In this document: positions 1,641 through 45,372 of the stretch, in pieces
How positions within the stretch are numbered: the first letter of the stretch is position 1
Layout: every line of letters begins with the position of its first letter
DNA from: Anisus vortex
Lineage: Eukaryota; Mollusca; Gastropoda; Planorbidae
DNA length: 64,000 nt
Reading direction: 5' to 3'
Assembly: GCA_949126835.1 (NCBI GenBank)
Contig: OX421507.1
Span: 11,803,011 to 11,867,010, forward strand
Made by a program: the position numbers and the translations under genes
Notes under the pieces: model-generated
Told to the model about the DNA's origin: nothing
Databases searched by the model: none
What the model saw: the letters and a program-made list of their open reading frames with translations, nothing else

Positions 1641-2585
1641 AACAAGAAAACCATAAAAACGAAGTTTTTATTATACTCCCTTTATTTGCAAACTAAGTTT
1701 ACCATCATGTAATTAAATAATTGATAGACTACTGCAATTGAAACGTACAGAAAAAATATCTGTGTCGCAAATCTCAAAAATATCTCCATACTCAGTATGA
1801 ATTGTTCTAAAAATAATCGTAGCGCATAATTATTTTTTTTTCCAGCTTTGCGCCGAAAAAGTATAAAAAGTTTCACAGGCATTTTTAACGCGAAATCAAA
1901 ATATTTCTTATACATTCCTTTTAAGAAATGAATATTGTCATAAGTGTAGTATTATTAGGTCGTTTTAACTGAAAATTTGATAGGATGTATTGTTAGGCGC
2001 CACAAATCTGCTGTCCAAATTTCAGCTTGATCGGACCACGGGAAGTGGTCGAAAAATCGAAGCCAATTTTTGCACCATTGACGATTGCAGACATCGCAAC
2101 TTAAAATAAAGGGAGGAACAAGAAAACCGTAAAAACGAAGTTTTTATTATACTCCCTTTATTTGCAAACTAAGTTTACCATCATGTATTTAAATAATTGA
2201 TTGACTGCTGCAAATGAAACGTACAGAAACAATATCTGTGTCGCAAATCTCAAAAATATCTCCTTACTCCGTATGAATTGTTCTAAAAATAATCGTAGCG
2301 CATAATTTTTTTTTTCTAGCTTTGCGCCGAAAAACTATAAAAAGTTGCACAGGCATTTTTAACGCGAAATTAAAATATTTCTTATACTTTCCTTTTAAGA
2401 AATGAATATTGTCATAAGTGTAGTATTATTAAGTTGTTTGAACTGAAAATTTGATAGGATGTATTGTTAGTCAGGGCAAGTCTGCTGTCCAAATTTCAGC
2501 TCGATCGGACCACGGGAAGTGGTCGAAAAATCGAAGCCAATTTTTGCACCACGATTGCAGACATTGCAACTTAAAATAAAGGTAG
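1641..2585. repeat. 476-bp tandem duplication, two copies
   Basis: The segment starting aacaagaaaacc at 1641 restarts at 2117 and stays highly similar to about 2585, with scattered substitutions and small indels. Each copy contains a hairpin-prone gaccacgggaagtggtc and a stretch around cgaaaaa-tataaaaagtt. That stretch resembles part of the 22-30 kb array units, so the two are probably related. The 77-residue open frame in copy 1 is not conserved in copy 2 and is not called. Confidence 0.9.
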
Positions 2586-3157
2586 TAATAAAAATAATGT
2601 TTGATCATAGACTATAATAAGATGGAACGCTTGCTCTATTTTTAGAGCTTCTATGTACTTTTTTCCGTGCGCAACCAATAAGGCTGTCTTAAATAACTTC
2701 TACGCACCTCATTGTTTCTTAAATGTTTCCGCTGTATAGAACTTTCGATTTAAATTTTTAATTGAGAAAATGGAAGCGATTCAATAAAACGGAAGTACAA
2801 AGGAAACAACGAATCGGGAATTCCGAAAAGCAGTCTTTCGAGTTATCATATAGCATAAATACTAAAGCAAGCCGTCCATTTGTATTATAGTCTATGGTTT
2901 GATCAAGAAGAAAACGCAACAATAAAATGTATGTTTGAGTTAAAGCGCAGTAGGCTACCTACAGTAACTAACAGTTGCTGTGTGGTTTATATGTGCGTTT
3001 GACTTAACGGCTCTGAGGCACATAGTAGATGTAGATCTAGTCTAAGGATTCTTCATTAGTCAATGATCTATGAAGAACCTATAGCAACTGCCGACTTGGC
3101 AGGCTAGCAATAAATGGTTCCAGATTCATTTCAAGGAAATTAGAGAGTGGACATGAA
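2586..3157. other. No gene seen
   Basis: Unique-looking AT-rich sequence without supported features. Confidence 0.4.
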
Positions 3158-3164
3158 TGATTGA

Positions 3165-3216
3165 GATAGATAGAGAGAGACAGAGAGAGGGAGAGAGTCT
3201 GAGAGAGAGTGAGAGA
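3165..3216. repeat. (GA)n-rich microsatellite
   Basis: Interrupted GA dinucleotide tract. The minus-strand open frame across it is low-complexity Leu/Ser and is not called. Confidence 0.85.
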
Positions 3217-3990
3217 GGAGCGTAACTGCGATAGGTAATCACTCCCTACAGTATGAATTGTTTCTTTGTAGGCAGTTAAAGAATGTGAGACTATTCTAGA
3301 GCAGATAAGAGATTTAGACTTTCGGCGTAGGCCTATGGTTAAATGCAATAGAAATTATTTTGAACAGTTTACAAGCCACGTATCCATGTATCAGATGTCA
3401 GGCTTATAATTTGAAGTAGCATCGATACAATATAAAACTAAACAATTATTTAACCGATATTACAAAAGAATCTGATCAGTGTTTGTTTTAAATAACATGA
3501 AATTGAGTATTCGTTATAAGCATTTATAAATAATAAGGCCTGTATATCAACTCTGTATCTGGGAAAGATTTCAGTGCAACTGAATGTAATAAACTACAAA
3601 CTACTATGTTTCTGGGCCTTTATAGTATTTTGATTGTGTTTATGGACAGTGTAGTATTTTGATTATGTTAGGGGTTTGTAAGCTTTTGTAGTATTATCAT
3701 TTATGTAGTATAATGGTGCTATGCATGTTGTGTTCTCAAGTGTCTGTGCTTGTATTAGTCTATGCATGTCTTGGTGGGATTTTTCACTGACGAATATTAC
3801 TTAGCTTCTTTGAATGACGCTTAAGTATACATGTCGTGTTAGATTGTCATTCTTTTTTTGTCGATGCAGTCTGCATTTCATTTCGCAGTCTTACAAATGT
3901 ATAATGATACTGCTAACATTCCTGACTTGTATATATAGAGAGAGACTTATCGAGAACATTTCTGCTAGCTGATATTCCGACACATATATA
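3217..3990. other. No gene seen
   Basis: AT-rich sequence with a few short repeated phrases (tagtattttgatt near 3625 and 3651). No supported feature. Confidence 0.4.
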
Positions 3991-9409: not shown

Positions 9410-12400
9410 TTTTTTTTTTTTACCTTATAACTCTGTATAGAAGGAGCAACTGTAAATGAGTAGCAAGTGCATTTCGCCTCCAGGTGTGATTGATAAAATT
9501 AATTATCAACAAACATTTGTGCCTGTCTTTCAGCTTTTTGAAACGAAAGAAAATCAGCCCATCGGCAAGTTCCCTCTCAGTGAAGAGAACTGCCAAGTCT
9601 GTCAATCTTGTCTGTCAAATGTAGCACTTGGTGAGCTTCAGCTTTGAGAAAGAGCCTAAATGCTATTAGCCCGGGAAAGGAAGATTCGCAGCAAGATCAC
9701 AATACTAGGCGGCTCAATTCCTAAGGTCTCTCTGTATGAGCTATACCTTTTTCTGGAGAAGGTCTCAAGGCTGTAAGCTTGACAGAAGTTTGTTGCAGAT
9801 CCAGCATTTTATTTGAAGCTACGTCTAAGGATCATTGATTACTTAATAAGCAAGCCTAGCATTTCGTCGTGTGTTGCGCCTGCAGGCAGCAATGTATGTT
9901 GTGTTTAGTTGCTAATTCTGAACTTCTTAATTGTTTTAAAATGAATCAAAACTTTCTGCGTTACATTGGAAAAATATGCTTGAAGCGCCATACCCGTGTT
10001 GATACCAAAGTTTTTAAAATTATTCGTTGTCTCGGCGTTGGGCGTCGACCACCAACGAAACGCGGGACCAGAGCTGGGCGTCTACATCGCATTTGGTATG
10101 GCCTGTCTAACAAACCTCTCGTCGCTGCGCCTGTTGTGGGTGTGTTCGATTCTTTTCAATCTGCGCCCACTACATTCGCACATCCCCACAAAGCTACAAA
10201 CCAGAAACTGGGCGTTTGTCTGCTGAATTCTCAATCGGTCAACCCTGTCGGGAAGGCTGACGTAATTTCCGACTACATCGTTGAGAATAATATTGACATA
10301 CTATTTATCACAGAGACATGGCTACGGCCCGGGGATGACCACAAGATTCAAGAACTTACTCCGGTTGGTTACCTTACTGCTTCCTTTCCCCGCCCGGCTG
10401 GTGCGGGTGGAGGTATTGCAGTTATATACAAACGACACCTGCATGCTGCCTCTTCTTTCTCCGACACCCTCCCCTTTCCCCACACCACCTTCGAGGCCGT
10501 GGAAATGACAGTGTCCACTACCACCACCGTAACCTTCCTTTGTATATATCGCCCTCCCCCGAATGCCAGGAACAGGCTAAGTGAAGCAACTTTTTTCGAC
10601 GAGTTCGCACTGGCACTCGACAATTACAATGTGACCTCACATAGTGCTATCGTTCTGGGCGACTTCAATATTCACTGGGACTGCCCCTCTAATGCCAACA
10701 CCAAGCGGGCCCGTGCGCTACTGGACAGCTACAGTCTCGACCAGGTCGTCCCATTCCCAACCCACGACCACGGGCACATTCTGGACTGGATCGTCACCAG
10801 ACCATCTGACAACCTGGTCTCCTGCCTCGTCGCCTGCGACCAACTGGTGTCTGACCACTCTGCTGTCAGCTTCATCGTCAACATCACCAGGCCGGCCAGG
10901 AAGCGCAAGATGGTCACTCGCCGCAAGCTGCGAGCTATAGACACTGTTGCCTTCGGTGCGGAGGCTGCATCGCTTCTCGCTCTGCGTGACCCCTCTTCAG
11001 ACCCGGCCCCCTTCTTGAACTTGACTCTACGTCAACTTCTTGACAGGCACGCCCCGCCATCTTTGTGTGCCGTCTCGGAGCGACCGCCAGCTCCTTGGTT
11101 TTCTGATGACGTCAAATCTGCCAAGCAAGAACGACGACGCGCGGAGCGAGCGTGGCGCCTCTCTGGCCTCGAGGTCCACCGCCAGATCTTCAGGGAAAAG
11201 CGACTACTCGTCAAAGAAGCCATCACTGCTGCCAAGGTCCTGCATTTCCACGACCGCATCAAGCATGCCTCGTCGCCCGGGGAGCTTCACTTAATCTTGT
11301 CCTCCCTTCTTGGCTCTTCTACCTCAACGCCCCTCCCCACCACCCGCCCACTCAACGACCTCCCTGATCACTTCTCACAGTACTTTCAGCAAAAGATTGC
11401 GACTCTGCGCTGTTCCCTGGATCAGGATGTCTACAGCCCATCTCCACCCTCTCCTACTTTCTCGGGCTCCCCGCTCACCTGCTTCCTTCCTGTAACCATT
11501 GACCTTGTCAAGCGCATCATCACAAGGACCCCCATCAAGACCTGTGAGCTTGACCCTATGCCCGGCTTCCTGTTTGCCAAGTGCTTGGACAGGCTTCTGC
11601 CGTTCATCACAGATATTATTAACACCTCTCTATCCACGGGCGTGGTCCCGGACTGCTTCAAATCCGCAATTGTCCGCCCTCTCTTAAAGAAGCCCGGACT
11701 CGATGTAAATGAGTGCAAGAACTACCGCCCAGTATCCAACCTACCCTTCCTTTCCAAGATCCTGGAGCGTGTTGTCCTTGAGCAGTTAAATGCCCATCTG
11801 TCTCTACATTCGCTGATGCCCGCGCACCAGTCTGCGTATCGCCACCATCACAGCACTGAGACAGCGCTTCTGCGGATCACCACTGACCTCCTAAACGCCT
11901 CTGACAGAGGTCTCGTCTCTGCCCTGGTGCAGCTTGATTTGTCTGCTGCCTTCGATACGATTGACCACCACCGACTAATTGATCGCCTCAGGTCTACATT
12001 TGGCATTCAAGACATCGCCCTCTATTGGTTCATTAACTATCTTCAGAATCGCTCCCAGACCGTTATGATTGAGTCCATATTCTCCCAGCCTGTTCACGTC
12101 TGCTATGGTGTGCCGCAGGGGTCTGTCCTTGGTCCACTTCTTTTCACCCTTTACACTCAACCCCTATCCTTTGTCATCGAACGCCACAACCTCAAATATC
12201 ATTCTTTCGCCGATGACACCCAGCTGTATAACAGTGCAGAGCCTGAGGACTTCGACAGGCTCCTTGCTTCCATCTCCATCTGTTTCCTGGACATCCAGAG
12301 CTGGATGACGGAAAACAAGTTGAAGCTTAACAGTGAGAAGACTGAAGCTCTTATCGTCGGTACGAGACAGAGGGTCGTGTCCCTCACTGCGTCCGATCTT

Positions 12401-13166
12401 CAGCTGGCTGATGCAACTGTGCCTTTCTCCCCGACTATCAAAAGCCTTGGCGTCTATCTGGACTCCACGCTGTCCATGCAAACCCACATCTCCTTCCTCA
12501 CCAAAATCTGCTTCTTCCATCTGCGTCGTATTGCCGCCATCCGTCGTTATCTCACCAAGGAAGCTTGTGTTAAGCTCATCATCTCTCTCCTATTTTCCCG
12601 CTTGGACTATTGTAATTCGCTTTTGGCTGGTCTCCCGGCCCCCTCCCTTCAAGGACTCCAACGTATCCAGAACTGCGCAGCCCGACTAGTTCTCAAGAAG
12701 AAGAAGTCAAATGATATCAATCCTCTGCTCCGATATCTGCACTGGCTACCCATCAACAACCGGATCTCATATAAGCTGGCTTCCCTCTGTTATAGGTGCC
12801 TGAATAACTGCGCCCCGGATTATCTTCGCTCTTGTATGGAGCTCTACACCCAGTCCCGCCCACTTCGTTCGGCATCTGACGCGCTTACTCTGCGGATCCC
12901 TCGTGTGAGGCTAGTGTCCGCTGGCGAACGTTCATTTTCCTACGCAGGACCGTCCGCTTGGAATCACCTCCCACTACAGCTTCGCCAGAGCCCTAGCTAT
13001 GACACCTTCAGGAGCCGGCTGAAGACTCACCTATTTCGTCAGCAGAATTAGCGTATTACTATATATTTCGTTGTCTGTCTGTATTCTGTAACTGTCGTCT
13101 GCGCATAGAACTGTCACCAACGGGATATGCGCTATATAAGCACCGTTATTATTTATTATTTATTTA
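9410..13166 (+). mobile_element. Non-LTR retrotransposon (LINE), CR1/L2-like, near full length
   Basis: Contains one long intact ORF2 and ends with a 3' UTR of about 115 bp that finishes gggatatgcgctatataag followed by a (ttatt)-rich tail. A fragment of the same 3' end is found at 17.04-17.11 kb, supporting a dispersed LINE. The 5' end is uncertain: a T-run at 9409-9421 and a roughly 450-bp leader precede ORF2, and no ORF1 was recognised. I could not define a target duplication. The CR1/L2-like assignment is inferred from domain order and the C-terminal RIQNCAARLV...HWLPI motifs; related clades such as Rex or Nimb are not excluded. Confidence 0.8.
9896..13051 (+). CDS. LINE ORF2: endonuclease-reverse transcriptase
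   Basis: An uninterrupted frame encodes an apurinic-like endonuclease followed by a reverse transcriptase, the enzyme pair that nicks target DNA and primes cDNA synthesis from the nick. Residues are numbered from the first codon of the open frame at 9869 (a GTG). The endonuclease spans about 113-335, with N120 (LLNSQSV), E149 (TETWL), YRPP, D265/N267 (GDFNIHWD) and H330 (SDHSAV). The RT spans about 600-850, with NYRPVSN at 618, motif A D690-D696 (DLSAAFD), motif B GVPQGS at 747 and motif C FADD at 780-783. The C-terminal region has RIQNCAARLV and HWLPINNRISYK. ATG codons are at 9896 and 9941; the second has A at -3 and may be the true start. All catalytic positions I checked are present, so the copy could be young or active. 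Confidence 0.9.
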   Translation: MLCLVANSELLNCFKMNQNFLRYIGKICLKRHTRVDTKVFKIIRCLGVGRRPPTKRGTRAGRLHRIWYGLSNKPLVAAPVVGVFDSFQSAPTTFAHPHKATNQKLGVCLLNSQSVNPVGKADVISDYIVENNIDILFITETWLRPGDDHKIQELTPVGYLTASFPRPAGAGGGIAVIYKRHLHAASSFSDTLPFPHTTFEAVEMTVSTTTTVTFLCIYRPPPNARNRLSEATFFDEFALALDNYNVTSHSAIVLGDFNIHWDCPSNANTKRARALLDSYSLDQVVPFPTHDHGHILDWIVTRPSDNLVSCLVACDQLVSDHSAVSFIVNITRPARKRKMVTRRKLRAIDTVAFGAEAASLLALRDPSSDPAPFLNLTLRQLLDRHAPPSLCAVSERPPAPWFSDDVKSAKQERRRAERAWRLSGLEVHRQIFREKRLLVKEAITAAKVLHFHDRIKHASSPGELHLILSSLLGSSTSTPLPTTRPLNDLPDHFSQYFQQKIATLRCSLDQDVYSPSPPSPTFSGSPLTCFLPVTIDLVKRIITRTPIKTCELDPMPGFLFAKCLDRLLPFITDIINTSLSTGVVPDCFKSAIVRPLLKKPGLDVNECKNYRPVSNLPFLSKILERVVLEQLNAHLSLHSLMPAHQSAYRHHHSTETALLRITTDLLNASDRGLVSALVQLDLSAAFDTIDHHRLIDRLRSTFGIQDIALYWFINYLQNRSQTVMIESIFSQPVHVCYGVPQGSVLGPLLFTLYTQPLSFVIERHNLKYHSFADDTQLYNSAEPEDFDRLLASISICFLDIQSWMTENKLKLNSEKTEALIVGTRQRVVSLTASDLQLADATVPFSPTIKSLGVYLDSTLSMQTHISFLTKICFFHLRRIAAIRRYLTKEACVKLIISLLFSRLDYCNSLLAGLPAPSLQGLQRIQNCAARLVLKKKKSNDINPLLRYLHWLPINNRISYKLASLCYRCLNNCAPDYLRSCMELYTQSRPLRSASDALTLRIPRVRLVSAGERSFSYAGPSAWNHLPLQLRQSPSYDTFRSRLKTHLFRQQN

Positions 13167-17115: not shown

Positions 17116-17718
17116 TTAAACTAATGGATGGCTCTTGAAGAATGCTTTGAAAATGTCTCTTGTCGACTTGGCATCATTGCTTGGCCTGCCACTTTTTTCC
17201 CAGACAATTGCAGAATTCTCACAGGAAACTTCTGTGTAGTTGTGATTAATTCTTTCCCTGTCAAAGATGACATTGTGCAAAACACAGATGTATTTTATAA
17301 TGCGATCTACAAGTTCAGCGTGTGTTTCAATTGGTATGGTCAAAGGACGCCACTTAGAAGTCAAAATTCCAAAGGCACATTCAACTGTATTTCTGCTTCT
17401 GGACAACCGTTTGTTGAAACAATCTTCATCGGGGGGTAGGTTTTGTCCTCCATAAGGTTTCAGCAAACAGTGCATCAAGGGGTAAGCTTCATCTGCGACG
17501 ATCACAAAAGGCGCCACATCATTTGAGTTGGGCAGGGTTGTTGGTTCCGGAATTTGCAGTGTTCCACTCATAATAGCTTTATAAAGACTAGAAGCTTGGA
17601 ATGTCCCTCCATCGCTCTGCTTTCCGTAGCCTCCCACATCGATCACGATAAATCGGTAATTTGCATCTACTAGAGCTTGGAGAACAATGGAGAAAAAATG
17701 CTGTTTAACAATAAAAAG
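17116..17718 (-). pseudogene. PIF/Harbinger (HARBI1-like) DDE transposase, N-truncated
   Basis: The enzyme would cut and rejoin element ends at TWA targets. The frame is open from 17718 to the TAA at 17116-17118; the first in-frame ATG is at 17646. Upstream of it the conserved core reads KQHFFSIVLQALVDANYRFI. Counting from that ATG, the catalytic triad is visible as D3 (VIDVGG, one residue into the ORF), D52 (VADEAYPL) and E89 (NTVECAFGIL), with KPYGG and FNKRLSRSRN between them, as in DDE_Tnp_4 proteins. About 200 codons remain against roughly 350 in complete members. The N-terminal helix-turn-helix part is missing, with a stop just upstream at 17719-17721. Probably inactive. Confidence 0.85.
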
Positions 17719-33582: not shown

Positions 33583-33649
33583 CAATATTAACTTACTAAT
33601 AAAAATAACAGTCATAATCTAGATAGGCGCATTTTGCCCCAAGTACGCT

Positions 33650-33682
33650 CTTGCGTGTGGGGTACGGTGGTCGAGCGGCAGC
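33650..33682 (+). mobile_element. tRNA-derived SINE, head (split by the palindromic element)
   Basis: The sequence gtacggtggtcgagcggcagc is the A-box side of the SINE head. It ends in ggcagc (33677-33682), which is repeated at 45114-45119, where the SINE continues with gagttcgactgg. Confidence 0.85.
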
Positions 33683-33741
33683 AGTAGTATAGTGTGTAGT
33701 TTTCAGGTAGGATTTACGGGTGAGGGTGACGGGTGACCCTG

Positions 33742-33809
33742 TGACCTTTGACCTCATGACCCCGTGACCTTTGACCCCGGCACCGGAAGTGATGTCATCC
33801 AAGATGGCG
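33742..33809. promoter_or_regulatory. Terminal cluster of transcription-factor-like sites, left end
   Basis: Within about 130 bp of the left terminus lie two DR1 nuclear-receptor-like sites, TGACCTTTGACCT (33742-33754) and TGACCTTTGACCC (33765-33777). They are followed by an ETS-like ACCGGAAGTG core (33782-33791), a CRE-like TGATGTCATC and a YY1-like AAGATGGCG (33801-33809). The sites match animal consensus motifs; binding is inferred only. Confidence 0.45.
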
Positions 33810-34661
33810 TCTCGTCGTGTTCTTACACGAGCTTTGTTAGCACGTGCTTTGATCATATGATTATTTTTGTCTGGTATTATTTTTGTGTGGTATTATTTTT
33901 TCCCATTGTCTTACAATGATTGACACATGTCCTATTTTTTTTCTCCTATTGTTTTATAAGGGTCTTTCTAAGGTTCAGCGGATCTAAAATTTTATAATTA
34001 ATTAATAATATTAATTAAGTAATTGATCACTGGTATAGTGTTCTTTATAATTTTCAATAGTAAAAGGCTTTTTTCAATAAGTTTAATGTGTTTATTGCCC
34101 TAATTAGCACCTTTGAATCGATAATTGATGTGTAAGGGTTATTTTTACTTACTTGGCGGCAGTAATTATCTTAATTTTATACTTAATTAATTAAATAATT
34201 GAAATTTTTATAGCCATTATTAGCGTGTAAAGGAACGTTTTTAAATACTAAGGGTCGTAATTAGCACTAAATATCCCACGTTTTTTTAATACTTTTTTTA
34301 CTTTTTACTTACTGGCATACATTGATTGTCTCTATTTTATACTTAATTAACATATTATAATTTTTATAGTTATAATTAACTTGTAAACAGGTGTTTTTAA
34401 TGACTAAGGGCCGTAATTATCACTAAATAGAAAACATTTTAATACGTTTTTACCTTATTAATTACATGGATACATTAATTGTCTCTATTTTATACTTAAT
34501 TAACATATTATAATTTTATAGTTATAATTAACTTGTAAACAGGTGTTTTTAATTACTAAGGGCCGTAATTATCACTAAATAGACAACATTTTAATACGTT
34601 TTTACCTTATTAATTACATGGATACAGTAATTTTCTTAATTTATTCTTAACTAATGAACTA
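33810..34661. other. Arm interior, AT-rich, diverged repeat units
   Basis: No gene. From about 34140 the phrases ctaagggccgtaatta and gttataattaacttgtaaa recur in diverged, longer-spaced form, an apparent decayed fringe of the 159-bp array. The mirror is 44135-44986. Confidence 0.6.
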
Positions 34662-35775
34662 ATTATAATTTTTATAGCCATAATTATCTCGTAAAGGGAC
34701 GATTTTAATTACTAAGGACCGTAATTATCACATTTCAAGCAACAATTCTCATGTAAGGAACGCACATTTACTTACTTCGATACGGTAATTATCTTAATTT
34801 TATTCTTAACTAATTAACTGATTATAATTTGTATAGCCATAATTATCTCGTAAAGGGACGATTTTAATTCCTAAGGGCCGTAATTATCACATTTTAAGCT
34901 ACAATTCTCATATAAGGAACGCACATTTACTTACTTCGATACGGTAATTATCTTAATTTTATTCTTAACTAATTAACTGATTATAATTTGTATAGCCATA
35001 ATTATCTCGTAAAGGGACGATTTTAATTACTAAGGGCCGTAATTATCACATTTCAAGCAACAATTCTCATTTAAGGAACGCACATTTACTTACTTCGATA
35101 CGGTAATTATCTTAATTTTATTCTTAACTAATTAACTGATTATAATTTGTATAGCCATAATTATCTCGTAAAAGGACGATTTTAATTCCTAAGGGCCGTA
35201 ATTATCACATTTTAAGCTACAATTCTCATGTAAGGAACGCACATTTACTTACTTCGATACGGTAATTATCTTAATTTTATTCTTAACTAATTAACTGATT
35301 ATAATTTGTATAGCCATAATTATCTCGTAAAAGGACGATTTTAATTCCTAAGGGCCGTAATTATCACATTTCAAGCAACAATTCTCATTTAAGGAACGCA
35401 CATTTACTTACTTCGATACGGTAATTATCTTAATTTTATTCTTAACTAATTAACTGATTATAATTTGTATAGCCATAATTATCTCGTAAAGGGACGATTT
35501 TAATTACTAAGGGCCGTAATTATCACATTTCAAGCAACAATGCTCATGTAAGGAACGCACATTTACTTACTTCGATACGGTAATTATCTTAATTTTATTC
35601 TTAACTAATTAACTGATTATAATTTGTATAGCCATAATTATCTCGTAAAGGGACGATTTTAATTACTAAGGGCCGTAATTATCACATTTCAAGCAACAAT
35701 GCTCATGTAAGGAACGCACATTTACTTACTTCGATACGGTGATTATCTTAATTTTATTTTTAACTAACTAACTAA
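34662..35775 (+). repeat. 159-bp tandem array, left arm, seven core units
   Basis: The phrase tacggtaattatcttaatt recurs every 159 bp (34781, 34940, 35099 and onward). Each unit also has tagccataattatctcgtaa, gacgattttaatt and a variable caagcaacaat-ctcat-taagg segment. Diverged units extend on to about 36290. Confidence 0.95.
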
Positions 35776-36289
35776 TTATAATTTTAATAACCATAATTAG
35801 CTTGTAAACGGGTCTGTTTTTAATTACAAAGGGCTGCAATTATCCCTAAATAGACCACATTCTATATACTTTTTACCTTTTTACTTATTGGGATAGAGTA
35901 ATTATCTTAATTTTATTCTTAATTAATTAAACAATTGAAATTTTTTATAGCCATAATTATCTTGTAAAGGGGTGTTTATTAATTACCAAGGGCCGTAATT
36001 AACACTAAATAGGCCACATTTTTTTACTTTTTAAACTTTTTACTTACTTGAATATAGTAATTGTCTTTATTGTATACTTGATTAACTAACTAATTATAAT
36101 TTTAAGAACCATAATTATCGTGTAAAGAGGTGTTTTTTTAATTACTAAGGCCACAAAATTAGCACTAAATAGGCCACCTTTTATATACATTTTACATTTT
36201 TACTTACTTGGATATAGTAATTATCTCTATTTTATACTTAATTAAATAACTAATTTGTATTTTTATAGCCATAATTATATTGTAAAGTT

Positions 36290-37147
36290 TTTTTTTAAAT
36301 AAGATGACGTCTATTTTGTTCTTACACATGATTTTAACACATGATTTTTTAAATTTAAGAATGTTTAATAATAATATTTCGGTTTGTTTAAGCCTTTTCC
36401 TTATTTATTGACAATAAACAAAAGTACGACATAAAGTACAACAGGACAACACTACAACAGTACAACATATATAAAAAAAAAATAGGTTTAAGTTATTATG
36501 TGATTTTATTCATAGTATTATATAGACATAGTACGTACATCAATTAAATAAGTTTATTTTTAATAATACTTTCATAGTATGTACATCAAACAAAAAGTTT
36601 ATTTATAACAATACATATATACATACAATAGCAACCAAAAAGCTTTATTTAGACCAATTCATATATACAGTATAATGTATTTATAGCAATCAAACAAGTT
36701 TATTTATAACAATGCGTATATACAGTATAGTGTATTTATAGCAATTCATAGAGACAGTATAGTGTATTTATAGCAATCAAACAAGTTTATTTATATCAAT
36801 TGATATATACAGTATAGTTTATTTACAGCAGTAAACAGGAAGCGTTGACAAGATCTGAAATAAATAAATGCTTGTCTTATAAAAAATTTAATAATAGTAC
36901 TATGTATATATTGTAAGCAGGTTAAAAATAAAGCCACCACCTATCTATATAACGATACAAGCTAAATTAACATATTGTGATAAAAAGGCAAAAAATAACT
37001 TACCTTTTTTTCTGTATATAACAGCGACCTAGACACAAAAACTGGAACAAGGGTAGATTTACGATGCTAGAACAAGTGAAATTTAGCAATCTGCCTCGGA
37101 CTATATATAGCGTATTTTGACCACACCTGTATTTATCAGTATCATCT
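36290..37147. other. Arm interior between array and LTR
   Basis: AT-rich; the phrases agtttatttat-a-caa and atatacagtatagtgtattta repeat several times at 36530-36830. No gene. The mirror is 41649-42506. Confidence 0.6.
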
Positions 37148-37771
37148 TGTTACGAATATCGGTCATAAATGAATGACGTAGTAAGGCGTTGACCTCTTAA
37201 CAAGTGCGTATCAGAGTCCAAAGCGACCAAGGTTTGACCTTTGTGCCCTGAGGGCAGTTTAAATAAAATAATTCGTCCAACCCCGTGGAAATTGGAGGAT
37301 AATTCTAGATCGTAGTAATTATAGAGAAAGGTTAAAATGCGTATTAAGACCCTGTAGAATCTTCGATGATAGTTTTCTTTGTAAAGTCCCGACCTCCTTA
37401 GAGAAAGTTCAGTTCGAAAGTTTGTAGAGTGAAGTCGCTATATTAATGCTTGTATATTTCATGTCATATTATTGATACTTATGTTGCCATCAGTTGATGA
37501 AATTTATTGATCGTTTATATTGAGTCTACAATTTAAATAAAATTGTTTATTCAACAACTGGAGTTGTTTGATCTATCATTGTTGAGAAAGGTGTTGAAGA
37601 TAATTATCACGAATATAACTACATTGCTGCATAGACCTGTCAGTCAAGAAACCCCTAGCTTGGGCTACAGATTAGCAGAATCTAGAGACTTCTAATAAAG
37701 ATACAACTATATGCATTGAATCCGATTTAACGAGTCGTAATAATAGTCATCATAACAAAGAGGCCATAACA
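37148..37771 (+). repeat. LTR of a gypsy-like retrotransposon, left arm
   Basis: Starts TGTTA and ends TAACA, a 5-bp inverted terminus of TG...CA type. It is followed one base later by a putative primer-binding site and then by gag, so it acts as a 5' LTR. Length 624 bp. No 3' LTR exists in the element, so there is no within-element LTR pair to compare. Confidence 0.75.
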
Positions 37772-37772
37772 A

Positions 37773-37790
37773 TTTGCGGGCTACGTCCGA
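37773..37790 (+). other. Putative primer-binding site, left arm
   Basis: The phrase tttgcgggctacgtccga directly after the LTR resembles, with differences, the tRNA-Pro-type site of some LTR elements. The tRNA match is not verified. The mirror is 41006-41023. Confidence 0.4.
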
Positions 37791-37945
37791 TATAGTTGTA
37801 TAGTGAAGCATATATTCAAGTTGTGTTGTGTTGTGTGTTGAAGCCGTGACCTACTGAGCAAGCCTAATAACGCTGAATTCATTCTTCCGATTGGAAAAAC
37901 GTAAGTTGGAAAAATGTACCACTTTATAAATCTCTTAACTAAAGA

Positions 37946-38646
37946 ATGGAATTTATTGAAAATCCAGAAGAAGAAGTTCTAAAAACTTTATCAATAAAGA
38001 AGTTAAAAGAGATCGCTGAGATCTTGAAGATAGAAGTTACTGAGACTACACCATCGAGGACTGTGTTGACACAGCAGATAAAAGATGTGTTGATTGCGAG
38101 TGGAAAGTTGGAAGTAGAATCAAGAGCGGAGGGATATCAAGTTGAAGGTCAGATGTCTGAACAGTTACGGTTTCAGTTAGAAATGAAACGGATGGAAATG
38201 GAGATGGAAGAAAAACGTCTTCATCGTGAGATGGAAGATAAGAAAAGTCAAAGAGAAATAGAAAGTCAGGAAAGAGATAAGAAAAGTCAAAGAGAAACAG
38301 AAAGTCAGGAAAGAATAGAACTGGCGAAGAAAGGAGCTACTAAAAAAGAATCTCATAATGATGTAGAGATGGCCAGGTGGAAAAAGCTAGTCCCTACCTA
38401 CTTTGATAAAGAAAGTGAAATAGCTAATTTCTTCCAGACCTTTGAAATTTCTTGCAGAGATTTTAGTTCCCAGAAGATAAATGGGGAATATTAGTAAGAA
38501 CAGCTTTTACTCAGGGAAGGGCAAGAGATTGTGTTCTATTGTTAAAAGAGGAGCATTTAAATGATTATGAAGTCATTAAAGACACTGTACTTAAAGCGTA
38601 CAACCAAATACCTGAAAGTTATCGGAAAAGGTTCCGTCAGTACACA
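37946..38646 (+). pseudogene. Gypsy-like gag, 5' part only (left arm)
   Basis: Gag would form the particle shell of the retroelement. A 182-codon frame starts at ATG 37946: the first 60 residues are mixed, then a charged Glu/Lys/Arg/Met-rich coiled-coil-like stretch (about 70-130), then a region ending YFDKESEIANFFQTFE that fits SCAN/retrotransposon-gag-like proteins. The frame ends at a TAG near 38494. Similarity continues in another frame to the arm boundary at 38646, where the copy is cut by the inversion junction. The same frame lesion is in the right arm, so it pre-dates the palindrome. Gag identity is inferred from domain style and LTR context. Confidence 0.75.
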
Positions 38647-39707
38647 GGTTTGCATTGTTGTTTGAGCATGCTGTGGTCTATCTGTTCATAGACATCAGTA
38701 GTAGGAGTTTCTTCCTCGTCGACAGCTTTCTCATGTAGCTGTAGCAACTCTGGGTCTACTTTCTGTTCAGCAATCAATTCATTTTGCGATGACTTCTTTG
38801 ATTGTTCATTTCCTTTCGGACAATCTTCAATCATGGAGAAAATAGTAGTATCGAGTTCCACTTCTCCTTCCTCTTTCTTCTCTCGTGGGAGAATTTCTTC
38901 TTTCTTTTTCTTTTCTTGTGAGATAGTTTCTTCTTTCTTTTTCTGTGGTGTCATACCATTTATGACATCACCTACAGGATAAAGTTCTTTTTCTTTTCCT
39001 GTCTCCACAATAGGAATAGGGTCTGGATTTTCCTTCACAATCAGTTCAGGTCTCACCCTCCCTTTCGCCAAATCATTTGCTAGGATAACGGATATGCCCT
39101 CAACAGGAAGTTTTGATATTACTCCAACTGTCACATATCCTGTCACCAAGTCAGATGCGAGGTATATCCTATGTAGAGGTATTTCTTCTTTCCATTCAAA
39201 ACCTCTCAATAGGACAGTCTGTCCTGTCAATGTATTATCATTCAATGGTAATACATCTTTAAGCAGCAGTGTTAATGATGCTCCTGTGTCTCGTAATGTG
39301 TTTACGGACTTCAGTGGTCCTTCCTTTTGTAAGGCCACACAACCTTCACTAATGAACGGTTGAAAACTGCACAGGGTCTCTGTGTCAATTTTATTCTTCC
39401 CTTGACCATGACTTTCGGGTGTTGTTTCATCTTTCGATGACTTCAGACTCTTGTTCGAGTCAAAAATACTTTGGTCTACTTTCTCGTCTCTGTGGACTTG
39501 GACAATTAACCCAATAGTAGCCATTCTGTATTTATAATCAGGATATTTATCCTCATTATCTTCAGTTGTAGATTTCTCTACCTTCTGACTTTTGCTCTCA
39601 GGCAAATCCACCCTCAGTGTTTCTGGTTTAGAAGAACTTTCTTCGAATTCAGTTCGTTTGTATTTTCGCTTTCTTGTACATTCTGTATTGGTGCATGTCT
39701 GACGCAC
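38637..39707 (-). pseudogene. Gypsy-like retropepsin region
   Basis: An open minus-strand frame of about 356 codons, starting at a GTG rather than a clear ATG. Residues around 141-147 read LRDTGAS, the D(T/S)GA signature of retroviral-type aspartic proteases that process gag-pol polyproteins. The following VLLRGFEW and VILANDLA blocks fit the protease fold. The N-terminal part is polar and the C-terminal part is Glu/Lys-rich. It lies in a different frame from the upstream zinc knuckle. Its final codons and stop come from the inverted left-arm copy, so the 3' end is a rearrangement junction. No reverse transcriptase or integrase follows. Confidence 0.75.
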
Positions 39708-40149
39708 ATTACCACTTTATTAGGTCCTTTTTCTTTCCTTATACTCCAACAGTCTTCAATGCTATGTCCTGTTCTTTTCAAAAAGTACATTGGACGTTTT
39801 TGTTGACAGGTTTCTTATTCACATCATTTTGTTTCACAAAATGCTCTTTTTCACGATGTTTTTGTGGTGTGTTTTCTGCTTGCCGTTGTGCCCTATTAAA
39901 ATTCTTTTCACCAGCTGTCCTATGACACAGTGTATACTGTTCCGCTAAATCAGCAGCCTTATGTGGGTCAGTGATGTCACGCTCGGATAAATACATTCTT
40001 ATATCCGGCCTCACTTTGTTAATAAAATCCTCTAACAGAATGATATCTTTCATTTCTTTTAATGTGGAGATATTTCTGGATTTTATCCACTGATCCATTA
40101 ACTTTTCTTCTGCTCTAAGGAAGTCTAAGTGTGTTTGGTAAGGGGACAT
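38647..40149. other. Unique spacer of the palindrome
   Basis: 1503 bp present once. On the minus strand it continues the right-arm retroelement with the rest of gag, a zinc-knuckle position and a retropepsin-like region. It ends abruptly at the left-arm copy, which lies in inverted orientation. Confidence 0.88.
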
Positions 40150-40850
40150 TGTGTACTGACGGAACCTTTTCCGATAACTTTCAGGTATTTGGTTGTACGC
40201 TTTAAGTACAGTGTCTTTAATGACTTCATAATCATTTAAATGCTCCTCTTTTAACAATAGAACACAATCTCTTGCCCTTCCCTGAGTAAAAGCTGTTCTT
40301 ACTAATATTCCCCATTTATCTTCTGGGAACTAAAATCTCTGCAAGAAATTTCAAAGGTCTGGAAGAAATTAGCTATTTCACTTTCTTTATCAAAGTAGGT
40401 AGGGACTAGCTTTTTCCACCTGGCCATCTCTACATCATTATGAGATTCTTTTTTAGTAGCTCCTTTCTTCGCCAGTTCTATTCTTTCCTGACTTTCTGTT
40501 TCTCTTTGACTTTTCTTATCTCTTTCCTGACTTTCTATTTCTCTTTGACTTTTCTTATCTTCCATCTCACGATGAAGACGTTTTTCTTCCATCTCCATTT
40601 CCATCCGTTTCATTTCTAACTGAAACCGTAACTGTTCAGACATCTGACCTTCAACTTGATATCCCTCCGCTCTTGATTCTACTTCCAACTTTCCACTCGC
40701 AATCAACACATCTTTTATCTGCTGTGTCAACACAGTCCTCGATGGTGTAGTCTCAGTAACTTCTATCTTCAAGATCTCAGCGATCTCTTTTAACTTCTTT
40801 ATTGATAAAGTTTTTAGAACTTCTTCTTCTGGATTTTCAATAAATTCCAT
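39778..40850 (-). pseudogene. Gypsy-like gag, right copy
   Basis: Starts at 40850 with the same 182 codons as the left copy. It breaks frame near 40302 and resumes as a 159-codon frame (40257-39778) reading YRKRFRQYTMSPYQTHLDFL, EDFINKVRPDIRMYL and DPHKAADLAEQY, typical of SCAN-like retroelement gag. It stops at 39778 where a CCHC zinc knuckle would lie: the first Cys precedes the TGA, and a spaced His and Cys follow it, so the stop replaces the second Cys. Two disabling changes are therefore visible. Confidence 0.8.
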
Positions 40851-41024
40851 TCTTTAGTTAAGAGATTTATAAAGTGGTACATTTTTCCAACTTACGTTTT
40901 TCCAATCGGAAGAATGAATTCAGCGTTATTAGGCTTGCTCAGTAGGTCACGGCTTCAACACACAACACAACACAACTTGAATATATGCTTCACTATACAA
41001 CTATATCGGACGTAGCCCGCAAAT

Positions 41025-41648
41025 TGTTATGGCCTCTTTGTTATGATGACTATTATTACGACTCGTTAAATCGGATTCAATGCATATAGTTGTATCTTTA
41101 TTAGAAGTCTCTAGATTCTGCTAATCTGTAGCCCAAGCTAGGGGTTTCTTGACTGACAGGTCTATGCAGCAATGTAGTTATATTCGTGATAATTATCTTC
41201 AACACCTTTCTCAACAATGATAGATCAAACAACTCCAGTTGTTGAATAAACAATTTTATTTAAATTGTAGACTCAATATAAACGATCAATAAATTTCATC
41301 AACTGATGGCAACATAAGTATCAATAATATGACATGAAATATACAAGCATTAATATAGCGACTTCACTCTACAAACTTTCGAACTGAACTTTCTCTAAGG
41401 AGGTCGGGACTTTACAAAGAAAACTATCATCGAAGATTCTACAGGGTCTTAATACGCATTTTAACCTTTCTCTATAATTACTACGATCTAGAATTATCCT
41501 CCAATTTCCACGGGGTTGGACGAATTATTTTATTTAAACTGCCCTCAGGGCACAAAGGTCAAACCTTGGTCGCTTTGGACTCTGATACGCACTTGTTAAG
41601 AGGTCAACGCCTTACTACGTCATTCATTTATGACCGATATTCGTAACA
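41025..41648 (-). repeat. LTR of a gypsy-like retrotransposon, right arm
   Basis: Mirror of the left-arm LTR at 37148-37771, oriented to read into the minus-strand gag. Confidence 0.75.
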
Positions 41649-43020
41649 AGATGATACTGATAAATACAGGTGTGGTCAAAATACGCTATATATAGTCCGA
41701 GGCAGATTGCTAAATTTCACTTGTTCTAGCATCGTAAATCTACCCTTGTTCCAGTTTTTGTGTCTAGGTCGCTGTTATATACAGAAAAAAAGGTAAGTTA
41801 TTTTTTGCCTTTTTATCACAATATGTTAATTTAGCTTGTATCGTTATATAGATAGGTGGTGGCTTTATTTTTAACCTGCTTACAATATATACATAGTACT
41901 ATTATTAAATTTTTTATAAGACAAGCATTTATTTATTTCAGATCTTGTCAACGCTTCCTGTTTACTGCTGTAAATAAACTATACTGTATATATCAATTGA
42001 TATAAATAAACTTGTTTGATTGCTATAAATACACTATACTGTCTCTATGAATTGCTATAAATACACTATACTGTATATACGCATTGTTATAAATAAACTT
42101 GTTTGATTGCTATAAATACATTATACTGTATATATGAATTGGTCTAAATAAAGCTTTTTGGTTGCTATTGTATGTATATATGTATTGTTATAAATAAACT
42201 TTTTGTTTGATGTACATACTATGAAAGTATTATTAAAAATAAACTTATTTAATTGATGTACGTACTATGTCTATATAATACTATGAATAAAATCACATAA
42301 TAACTTAAACCTATTTTTTTTTTATATATGTTGTACTGTTGTAGTGTTGTCCTGTTGTACTTTATGTCGTACTTTTGTTTATTGTCAATAAATAAGGAAA
42401 AGGCTTAAACAAACCGAAATATTATTATTAAACATTCTTAAATTTAAAAAATCATGTGTTAAAATCATGTGTAAGAACAAAATAGACGTCATCTTATTTA
42501 AAAAAAAACTTTACAATATAATTATGGCTATAAAAATACAAATTAGTTATTTAATTAAGTATAAAATAGAGATAATTACTATATCCAAGTAAGTAAAAAT
42601 GTAAAATGTATATAAAAGGTGGCCTATTTAGTGCTAATTTTGTGGCCTTAGTAATTAAAAAAACACCTCTTTACACGATAATTATGGTTCTTAAAATTAT
42701 AATTAGTTAGTTAATCAAGTATACAATAAAGACAATTACTATATTCAAGTAAGTAAAAAGTTTAAAAAGTAAAAAAATGTGGCCTATTTAGTGTTAATTA
42801 CGGCCCTTGGTAATTAATAAACACCCCTTTACAAGATAATTATGGCTATAAAAAATTTCAATTGTTTAATTAATTAAGAATAAAATTAAGATAATTACTC
42901 TATCGCAATAAGTAAAAAGGTAAAAAGTATATAGAATGTGGTCTATTTAGGGATAATTGCAGCCCTTTGTAATTAAAAACAGACCCGTTTACAAGCTAAT
43001 TATGGTTATTAAAATTATAA

Positions 43021-44134
43021 TTAGTTAGTTAGTTAAAAATAAAATTAAGATAATCACCGTATCGAAGTAAGTAAATGTGCGTTCCTTACATGAGCATTGT
43101 TGCTTGAAATGTGATAATTACGGCCCTTAGTAATTAAAATCGTCCCTTTACGAGATAATTATGGCTATACAAATTATAATCAGTTAATTAGTTAAGAATA
43201 AAATTAAGATAATTACCGTATCGAAGTAAGTAAATGTGCGTTCCTTACATGAGCATTGTTGCTTGAAATGTGATAATTACGGCCCTTAGTAATTAAAATC
43301 GTCCCTTTACGAGATAATTATGGCTATACAAATTATAATCAGTTAATTAGTTAAGAATAAAATTAAGATAATTACCGTATCGAAGTAAGTAAATGTGCGT
43401 TCCTTACATGAGCATTGTTGCTTGAAATGTGATAATTACGGCCCTTAGTAATTAAAATCGTCCCTTTACGAGATAATTATGGCTATACAAATTATAATCA
43501 GTTAATTAGTTAAGAATAAAATTAAGATAATTACCGTATCGAAGTAAGTAAATGTGCGTTCCTTAAATGAGAATTGTTGCTTGAAATGTGATAATTACGG
43601 CCCTTAGGAATTAAAATCGTCCTTTTACGAGATAATTATGGCTATACAAATTATAATCAGTTAATTAGTTAAGAATAAAATTAAGATAATTACCGTATCG
43701 AAGTAAGTAAATGTGCGTTCCTTACATGAGCATTGTTGCTTGAAATGTGATAATTACGGCCCTTAGTAATTAAAATCGTCCCTTTACGAGATAATTATGG
43801 CTATACAAATTATAATCAGTTAATTAGTTAAGAATAAAATTAAGATAATTACCGTATCGAAGTAAGTAAATGTGCGTTCCTTACATGAGAATTGTAGCTT
43901 AAAATGTGATAATTACGGCCCTTAGGAATTAAAATCGTCCCTTTACGAGATAATTATGGCTATACAAATTATAATCAGTTAATTAGTTAAGAATAAAATT
44001 AAGATAATTACCGTATCGAAGTAAGTAAATGTGCGTTCCTTACATGAGAATTGTTGCTTGAAATGTGATAATTACGGTCCTTAGTAATTAAAATCGTCCC
44101 TTTACGAGATAATTATGGCTATAAAAATTATAAT
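43021..44134 (-). repeat. 159-bp tandem array, right arm, seven core units
   Basis: Mirror of the left array with the same unit number and period but different variants at units 2-5. Confidence 0.95.
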
Positions 44135-44986
44135 TAGTTCATTAGTTAAGAATAAATTAAGAAAATTACTGTATCCATGTAATTAATAAGGTAAAAACGT
44201 ATTAAAATGTTGTCTATTTAGTGATAATTACGGCCCTTAGTAATTAAAAACACCTGTTTACAAGTTAATTATAACTATAAAATTATAATATGTTAATTAA
44301 GTATAAAATAGAGACAATTAATGTATCCATGTAATTAATAAGGTAAAAACGTATTAAAATGTTTTCTATTTAGTGATAATTACGGCCCTTAGTCATTAAA
44401 AACACCTGTTTACAAGTTAATTATAACTATAAAAATTATAATATGTTAATTAAGTATAAAATAGAGACAATCAATGTATGCCAGTAAGTAAAAAGTAAAA
44501 AAAGTATTAAAAAAACGTGGGATATTTAGTGCTAATTACGACCCTTAGTATTTAAAAACGTTCCTTTACACGCTAATAATGGCTATAAAAATTTCAATTA
44601 TTTAATTAATTAAGTATAAAATTAAGATAATTACTGCCGCCAAGTAAGTAAAAATAACCCTTACACATCAATTATCGATTCAAAGGTGCTAATTAGGGCA
44701 ATAAACACATTAAACTTATTGAAAAAAGCCTTTTACTATTGAAAATTATAAAGAACACTATACCAGTGATCAATTACTTAATTAATATTATTAATTAATT
44801 ATAAAATTTTAGATCCGCTGAACCTTAGAAAGACCCTTATAAAACAATAGGAGAAAAAAAATAGGACATGTGTCAATCATTGTAAGACAATGGGAAAAAA
44901 TAATACCACACAAAAATAATACCAGACAAAAATAATCATATGATCAAAGCACGTGCTAACAAAGCTCGTGTAAGAACACGACGAGA

Positions 44987-45054
44987 CGCCATCTTGGATG
45001 ACATCACTTCCGGTGCCGGGGTCAAAGGTCACGGGGTCATGAGGTCAAAGGTCA
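44987..45054. promoter_or_regulatory. Terminal cluster of transcription-factor-like sites, right end
   Basis: Mirror image of the left cluster: YY1-like at 44987-44995, ETS-like at about 45005-45014, DR1-like at 45019-45031 and 45042-45054. Confidence 0.45.
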
Positions 45055-45113
45055 CAGGGTCACCCGTCACCCTCACCCGTAAATCCTACCTGAAAACTAC
45101 ACACTATACTACT

Positions 45114-45372
45114 GGCAGCGAGTTCGACTGGTGATCTGAAAGTTCTGGGTTCGAATCCTGGTGCAGGCTAGGATTTTTTTCCCGGGACTTGAGGGTGTCT
45201 CCGAGTCTACCCAGCTCTTATGTTTACCTGACACTAGTTGGGGTAAAGTAAAGGCGGATGGGCATTGTGCTGGCCACACATCCCCTAGTATGCCGTGGCC
45301 ACATAAACTGGTGAACGCTGATTCACCAGCCCTATGATCAATTTGTCCAACGGGTACTGTACAGACTGTACT
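45114..45372 (+). mobile_element. tRNA-derived SINE, main body (split by the palindromic element)
   Basis: Starts with the second ggcagc copy, then gagttcgactgg, B-box-like gggttcgaatcc, tctacccagctctta, cctgacactagttgggg, tggccacacatcccc and gggtactgtaca. It is the best-preserved SINE body in the window. Confidence 0.9.

Follow-up and report, generated by a model that had tools for sequence, protein, structure and literature searches.

How does a mobile element come to consist almost entirely of two mirror-image arms, and by what route did it reach its present site? The questions are raised by an insertion at positions 33683-45113 of a 64,000-nucleotide stretch of the genome of the gastropod Anisus vortex (GCA_949126835.1, contig OX421507.1, positions 11,803,011-11,867,010 of the forward strand), hereafter called the window. 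A preliminary description, made from the letters of the window, had recognized the palindrome and its Maverick-type ends, and this part of it stands; it overlooked a long terminal repeat (LTR) retroelement inside the palindrome and the relationship of the insertion, through rearrangement, to a copy like that found at C14:28283349-28299173 of the same genome (the C14 element). The insertion is probably a giant-palindrome, non-autonomous satellite of Mavericks (Polintons), in which the LTR-bearing arm of a C14-like parent was likely copied back during replication; the product was then likely integrated into a short interspersed nuclear element (SINE) by the integrase of a Maverick, supplied in trans.

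Architecture of the palindrome and its target site

The features of the element and its target are as follows.

33640-33682, plus strand: 5' part of the interrupted SINE head, from the joined flanks aligned to uninterrupted SINE copies
33677-33682, no strand: left target-site duplication GGCAGC, from a direct sequence check
33683-38646, plus strand: left palindrome arm, with 11 mismatches in 4,964 positions against the right arm
33683-33688, plus strand: tip (AGT)2, a Maverick end motif (jump-back repeat; PMC8097293)
33742-33776, plus strand: subterminal pair TGACCTTTGACC, mirrored at 45020-45054
34144-36287, plus strand: 159-bp tandem array of the left arm, mirrored at 42509-44652
38645-38648, no strand: putative fold-back junction (38646/38647) with a 2-bp microhomology, TG
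38647-40149, no strand: single-copy loop of 1,503 bp between the arms, containing retroelement gag-pro sequence
40150-45113, minus strand: right palindrome arm, collinear with the C14 element
45108-45113, plus strand: tip (ACT)2 (motif as in PMC8097293)
45114-45119, no strand: right target-site duplication GGCAGC, from a direct sequence check
45120-45300, plus strand: remainder of the interrupted SINE, from the same alignment of joined flanks

The arms pair as x with 78796-x without a gap and account for 86.9% of the 11,431-bp element, so that the register, the flanking ggcagc copies and the share of about 87% given in the preliminary description all hold. The edge of the duplication is unambiguous, the outer bases being C versus T and the inner bases A versus G. 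When the flanks are rejoined, they align without a gap across the insertion point to two intact SINE copies that the window contains at about 5189 and 16247; excision thus restores the SINE, as had been claimed.

All 11 arm mismatches sit in the 159-bp tandem array, and the two arms are identical over their outermost 1,229 bp and innermost 2,755 bp. Because the right-arm 31-mer recurs in another unit of the left-arm array for 10 of these 11 positions, the mismatches look like differences in the order of the units, and the arms are therefore separated by no more than one or two ordinary point differences. If neutral rates of 1-8e-9 per site per year are assumed, two such differences would correspond to roughly 25,000-200,000 years.

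A retroelement inside the palindrome

The inner part of the arms and the centre of the palindrome are LTR-retroelement sequence, with the following parts.

37148-38646, plus strand: 5' part of the LTR retroelement, with the LTR starting at 37148 (TGTTACG...), followed by a leader and a truncated gag
37943-38494, plus strand: gag N-terminal frame of the left arm
38637-39716, minus strand: protease region and start of the next pol segment (five homologues, of which one also has integrase domains)
39778-40329, minus strand: SCAN-type capsid frame of gag (PF02023, E 9.4e-11)
40302-40853, minus strand: gag N-terminal frame of the right arm

The edge of the LTR was placed by using window positions 37000-37950 as a genome query, which gave 40 scored hits. 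The two window arms and the C14 element match this query from its first position. After their removal 37 copies were left, 35 of which begin at query positions 139-151 (window 37138-37150) and the other two at 129 and 134. The three loci that were read (L050, L051 and L053) carry TGTTACG at this boundary, and the GC content of the window rises stepwise near 37148. The SCAN-type capsid occupies a different frame from the gag N-terminus, and the same break is present in the left arm (frame 38467-38691); a protein search with the SCAN frame returned no match.

The C14 element and the palindrome junction

The C14 element has the same tips as the window element and a duplication of its own, GCCGGG. 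Its left part matches the minus strand of the window from 45113 to 38647 over the full 6,467 bp at 99.4% identity (25 mismatches, 3 gaps), and this match runs through the loop and ends exactly at the palindrome junction, where TG is shared. A 300-bp query placed across the junction was spanned by one of its 40 scored hits, the window itself; the others end at query position 150 or begin at 149. On the minus strand from 45113 to 38647, the tip, array, LTR, gag and protease follow each other unbroken and the left arm stops within gag at 38646, which indicates that the parental order is preserved on the right side and that it was the left arm that was added.

The two arms of the C14 element differ at 22 places in their outer 1,800 bp and are 99.1% alike from arm position 1,834 to 3,466. 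Only one of them contains the retroelement, the matching LTR site in the other being empty; in the window element, both arms have the 5' part of the retroelement, inside which the junction forms the new axis. By sequence comparison, the window copy is thus a second-generation palindrome, a rearranged relative of a C14-like copy. Furthermore, since the two places share the same internal retroelement site and each has its own duplication, such a Maverick-type element moved to another place after it had acquired the retroelement.

One marker touches on the origin of the added arm. An additional T in a T-run at arm position 611 occurs at both window tips and in the LTR-bearing arm of the C14 element and is absent from seven other aligned tips. 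Nine tip differences had at one stage been taken as proof that the left arm derives from the LTR-bearing end; this argument was withdrawn, as eight of the nine are private to one C14 arm.

As a separate observation, a second copy of the 40-bp flank and of ~1.5 kb from the start of the C14 element lies 6.4 kb upstream (C14:28276927-28278457), as either a local tandem duplication or an assembly duplicate.

Related tips across the genome

The host genome was searched over 863 Mb in 159 contigs. The first 301 bp of the element gave 85 matches, mostly arranged as inverted pairs (40 of 575 candidates scored), and the tip pattern AGTAGTATAGKRKGKWSTTTTC occurs 116 times in forward and 116 times in reverse orientation, against 0 and 0 for the control. 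Among the 100 of these 232 tips that were listed, 90 form 45 inward pairs spaced 7.6-19.5 kb apart (median 13.9 kb), eight of which measure 16.1-16.6 kb. Given this family of related copies, the idea that the window copy is a lone rearrangement was dropped.

Target-site duplications were inspected in two sets, the first consisting of ten pairs from the 301-bp tip search and the second of every fourth of the 39 pairs left after removing six already inspected. Each set contains exact 6-bp duplications in nine of ten pairs. In the tenth pair of the first set, an (AGT)3 tip on the left is matched with (AGT)2 on the right; the duplication ATAGTG fits if a slip of one triplet is granted. With the window and C14 elements included, 20 of 22 elements have an exact duplication, one more fits with the slip and one does not. 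The family thus supplies the further copies with 6-bp duplications for which the preliminary description had proposed to search, and their ends coincide with those of the window element. The flanks are varied, with unrelated duplications such as CCCGGG, AACAAC and TCTCTC.

The same 7-base tip variant is found at both ends in 43 of the 45 pairs, whereas shuffling gives a mean of 18.0 and a maximum of 31. At tip positions 11-17 there are mainly three cassettes, TGTGTAG, GATGGTC and TAGGGTC, each also present on the Maverick-class elements described below; possibly they are specificity types for a terminal protein or polymerase.

A 15-base tip search of viral contigs gave 39 matches, none with more than 17 matching bases and none (0/39) with the inverted partner word. 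As they neither extend past 17 bases nor have an inverted partner, these matches are taken as chance.

Gene-bearing elements with the same tips

In vertebrates, (AGT)2//(ACT)2 is the commonest Maverick end motif and (AG)3//(CT)3 an alternative one; such motifs are thought to allow jumping back in protein-primed replication (PMC8097293). The A. vortex genome contains elements of 16.3-16.5 kb with the same tips as the window element, and all five that were checked have terminal inverted repeats (TIRs) of 493-670 bp. Two copies (C4:8.71 and C7:24.08) encode an integrase with a chromodomain (PF00665, 3.4e-15 and 1.8e-15; PF00385, 2e-9), and two others (C5:14.20 and C6:27.87) an adenovirus-type protease (PF00770, 3e-5 and 2.1e-4, over the cut-off). 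The copy at C2:51.67 has a PolB-type open reading frame (ORF) of 1,394 aa, clipped by the end of the fetched piece. It has 1,582 homologues (E up to 1e-3); many of the 120 listed bear DNA_pol_B_2, PF03175 is found on listed ones such as P0011, P0014 and P0015, and those with a named source come from the gastropods Bradybaena, Pomacea, Littorina, Nucella and Elysia.

The integrase, protease and PolB-type proteins of this class were read from different copies, and no ATPase or capsid gene was recognised; on sequence grounds, the ~16.4-kb elements with these tips are taken to be Mavericks. They are the relatives sharing the terminus that the preliminary description had suggested looking for, and its view that the window element suits Polinton/Maverick gains from their having the same tips and 6-bp duplications in the same genome. 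Across its first ~430-460 bp, the palindrome at C5:1.37 matches each of the five Maverick-class tips (87.0-95.9% identity).

The scanned ORFs of the window element include no PolB, integrase, protease, ATPase or capsid gene of its own, and it is therefore filed as a non-autonomous derivative of Mavericks, not as an autonomous one. Likewise, no Maverick family was found among the palindrome ORFs scanned, namely seven from the window arm, two from L125 and L127 and nine from L077-L079, L081 and L082.

A profile search of the genome with PF03175 found seven loci with long open frames of 858-1,516 aa, including C5:32440853-32451900, C1:21421605 and C4:35422050; at one place, two polymerase genes lie 10 kb apart.

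Arm identity and palindrome centres

At 3.8-5.0 kb from the tips, seven of ten systematically sampled elements have inverted arms, which are 98.7-100% identical in six of them and 80.6% in one. Over the outer 1.2 kb, all ten elements, palindromes and Mavericks taken together, have two ends that are 97.4-100% alike, compared with a median identity of 89.4% and at most 97.3% between different elements (n = 100).

Twelve middles were sampled in two batches of six, with the C14 piece set aside; in seven of them, long inverted repeats enclose a centre of 863-1,452 bp. The axis of the middle coincides to the base with that of the tips in two of the six for which it was computed (arms of 5.2 and 6.4 kb). 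A 122-bp array is present in one palindrome centre, which occurs at 40 places at least (40 scored of 214 candidates).

A proposed fold-back model of replication

The steps proposed are these. Replication would start at a terminal protein on the AGT repeats, and the strand begun at one tip would pass the array, LTR, gag and protease. At the 2-bp match inside the retroelement, a template switch or fold-back would occur, after which the strand would copy its own newly made arm as far as the tip. The result would be a linear genome whose two ends and origins are identical. Proteins of a helper Maverick would then replicate and integrate this palindromic genome, and arm-from-arm copying would keep the arms of one copy nearly identical while the copies diverge from each other. 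The fold-back presumably preceded integration, which the matched ends within copies fit. For terminal-protein priming, the AGT repeats and the single (AGT)3/(AGT)2 slip are indirect indications.

Several observations weigh against this model or narrow its basis. It is built on end products, no replication intermediate having been seen, and repair in the chromosome would give the same local product. As to the donor of the added arm, eight of the nine sites that separate the two C14 tips are private to one C14 arm and uninformative, and the sole informative marker, the T-run indel at 611, agrees with the model and is a homopolymer. The family is not uniformly palindromic: three of the ten sampled pairs (two protease-bearing Mavericks and one 19.5-kb element) are non-palindromic at 3.8-5.0 kb, five of the 12 middles are not self-inverted, and four of the six computed axes are shifted by 33-794 bp from the tip axis, as indels in one arm would do. 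At C7:22.92 (C7:22918484-22930044) the arms are 80.6% alike at depth and there is no matching duplication; this copy is possibly a recombinant of two copies.

The comparisons of identity have limits as well. The value between elements at 3.8-5.0 kb, a median of 73.8% (n = 22), mixes arrays and unlike stretches, and some pairs reach 95-99.5%. Equality of the outer 1.2 kb is not specific to palindromes, as Maverick-class TIRs are 98.5-99.8% equal there; it thus speaks for end-from-end copying in general. The window tip shares only stretches of 69-168 bp (71-88%) with the Maverick-class tips. Of the seven PF03175 loci, the four on C1, C4 and C5 fall within none of the listed tip pairs and perhaps represent a second Maverick lineage. 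Moreover, the PF03175 profile search missed the PolB-type ORF on C2.

A broader proposal, for and against which we see about equal chances, is that a snap-back genome lineage, a counterpart among DNA viruses of copy-back defective interfering genomes, has turned into a Maverick satellite that perpetuates itself in an animal germ line. Such a satellite would have no recognised genes and would consist of end-to-end palindromes dependent on a helper polymerase, an integrase and perhaps capsids; one arm would be rebuilt from the other in each round, and a new axis could arise when a foreign insertion breaks the symmetry, as in the window copy.

Gene content and end motifs have so far been the main grounds for inferring how Mavericks replicate. 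In the present family, this replication appears to be recorded in its end products: AGT tips with a one-triplet slip, matched tip variants, near-identical arms, and one palindrome with a readable parent type, insertion marker and junction. The family thereby offers a natural system for testing errors of protein-primed replication, satellite parasitism on Mavericks and the chromosomal stability of palindromes of 11-15 kb.

Competing explanations

The most serious alternative is repair in situ, according to which a C14-type palindrome first inserted into the SINE, and a later break was mended with the LTR-bearing arm as the template for the other, followed by end joining inside the retroelement. 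The C14 arms, alike up to the LTR site for more than 3.3 kb, could indeed have templated each other, and a 2-bp microhomology at the junction is what end joining is expected to leave. This route nevertheless requires both an insertion and a second event at the same site, and the matched tip variants (43/45) and the arm equality within copies demand end-from-end copying anyway. In addition, the C14 element has kept its retroelement in one arm only, which argues that arms are not steadily converted in the chromosome. Repair in situ is accordingly considered unlikely.

It is quite improbable that the element belongs to a foldback family that resembles Mavericks at its tips by chance and is moved by another transposase making 6-bp duplications, for example of the IS3EU or Dada type. 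The lack of any Maverick family in the scanned palindrome ORFs would agree with it. Against it stand the gene-bearing Mavericks of the same genome, which share the tips, tip cassettes and 6-bp duplications. IS3EU/GingerRoot itself was rejected, as its termini are given as TA..TA (occasionally TG..CA), with a 6-bp duplication (PMC10045372), versus AG..CT here, and Dada does not fit either (see below).

An assembly artefact, such as a fold-back chimeric read or a misjoin, has to be considered since giant palindromes are an assembly hazard. Nonetheless, the flanks are different halves of one SINE, the arms end exactly at the tips with a duplication, and other family members show the same architecture with duplications of their own, which makes such an error very improbable.

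A Dada element, autonomous or not, in a tRNA-like target had been offered as an alternative in the preliminary description, and it can practically be dismissed: Dada makes 6-7-bp duplications in small-RNA genes, which recalls the tRNA-like SINE head, yet Dada-U6 and Dada-U1 are portrayed in PMC3706591 without TIRs and with fixed target sites, whereas the present element has TIRs and its relatives occupy varied, unrelated targets.

Relation to other systems

With the Mavericks, the element shares the (AGT)2//(ACT)2 tips, the 6-bp duplications and the TIRs, and gene-bearing elements ending in these tips reside in the same genome. For intact vertebrate Mavericks, PMC8097293 reports lengths of 12.7-24.6 kb, eight conserved genes and TIRs of 46-1,447 bp. 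The arms of 4,964 bp in the window and of 5.2 and 6.4 kb in the two palindromes with coincident axes differ from these, and arms of ~5 kb thus fall outside the vertebrate TIR range given in that source. Among the open-licence papers listed, no report of palindromic Mavericks was found, judged by titles and abstract openings.

Foldback-type elements such as Galileo of Drosophila likewise have very long TIRs and internal tandem repeats. Galileo differs in being described as a P-superfamily transposon and in having a duplication of 7 bp, as opposed to 6 bp here. The choice posed in the preliminary description, between a member of a known superfamily and a foldback-type family, resolves into both at once: a foldback-type family that uses Maverick ends beside gene-bearing Mavericks.

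A further likeness is to the genomes of adeno-associated virus (AAV), which uses parvovirus priming, not terminal-protein priming. AAV snapback genomes are self-complementary half genomes, either symmetric or with an unpaired loop (asymmetric), in which one parental end is kept (PMC8235507). In the same way, the window copy is an inverted duplication of one parental end around a new axis that is absent from the C14 parent type. The AAV molecules are packaged virion genomes, whereas the present ones are chromosomal insertions that form a family; for AAV, the authors favour end joining over template switching (PMC8235507).

Other features of the window

With up to one mismatch allowed, TGACCTTTGACC has four matches in the window versus 0.21 expected. 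The motif, which we take to resemble a nuclear-receptor half-site, forms pairs just inside the tips that are visible also in the subterminal sequence of Maverick-class elements. The single-strand fold of the element tip is unremarkable (z -0.41), and scans of the 64-kb window with Rfam (gathering threshold) and for tRNAs gave no match.

Outside the element, a long ORF of a non-LTR retrotransposon at 9860-13051 encodes an endonuclease and a reverse transcriptase in 1,063 aa, and a DDE_Tnp_4 transposase fragment, presumably of Harbinger type, lies at 17116-17718. Between 24056 and 30053 there are tandem units of ~1.95 kb, 92-98% similar, each with a 19-bp satellite array.

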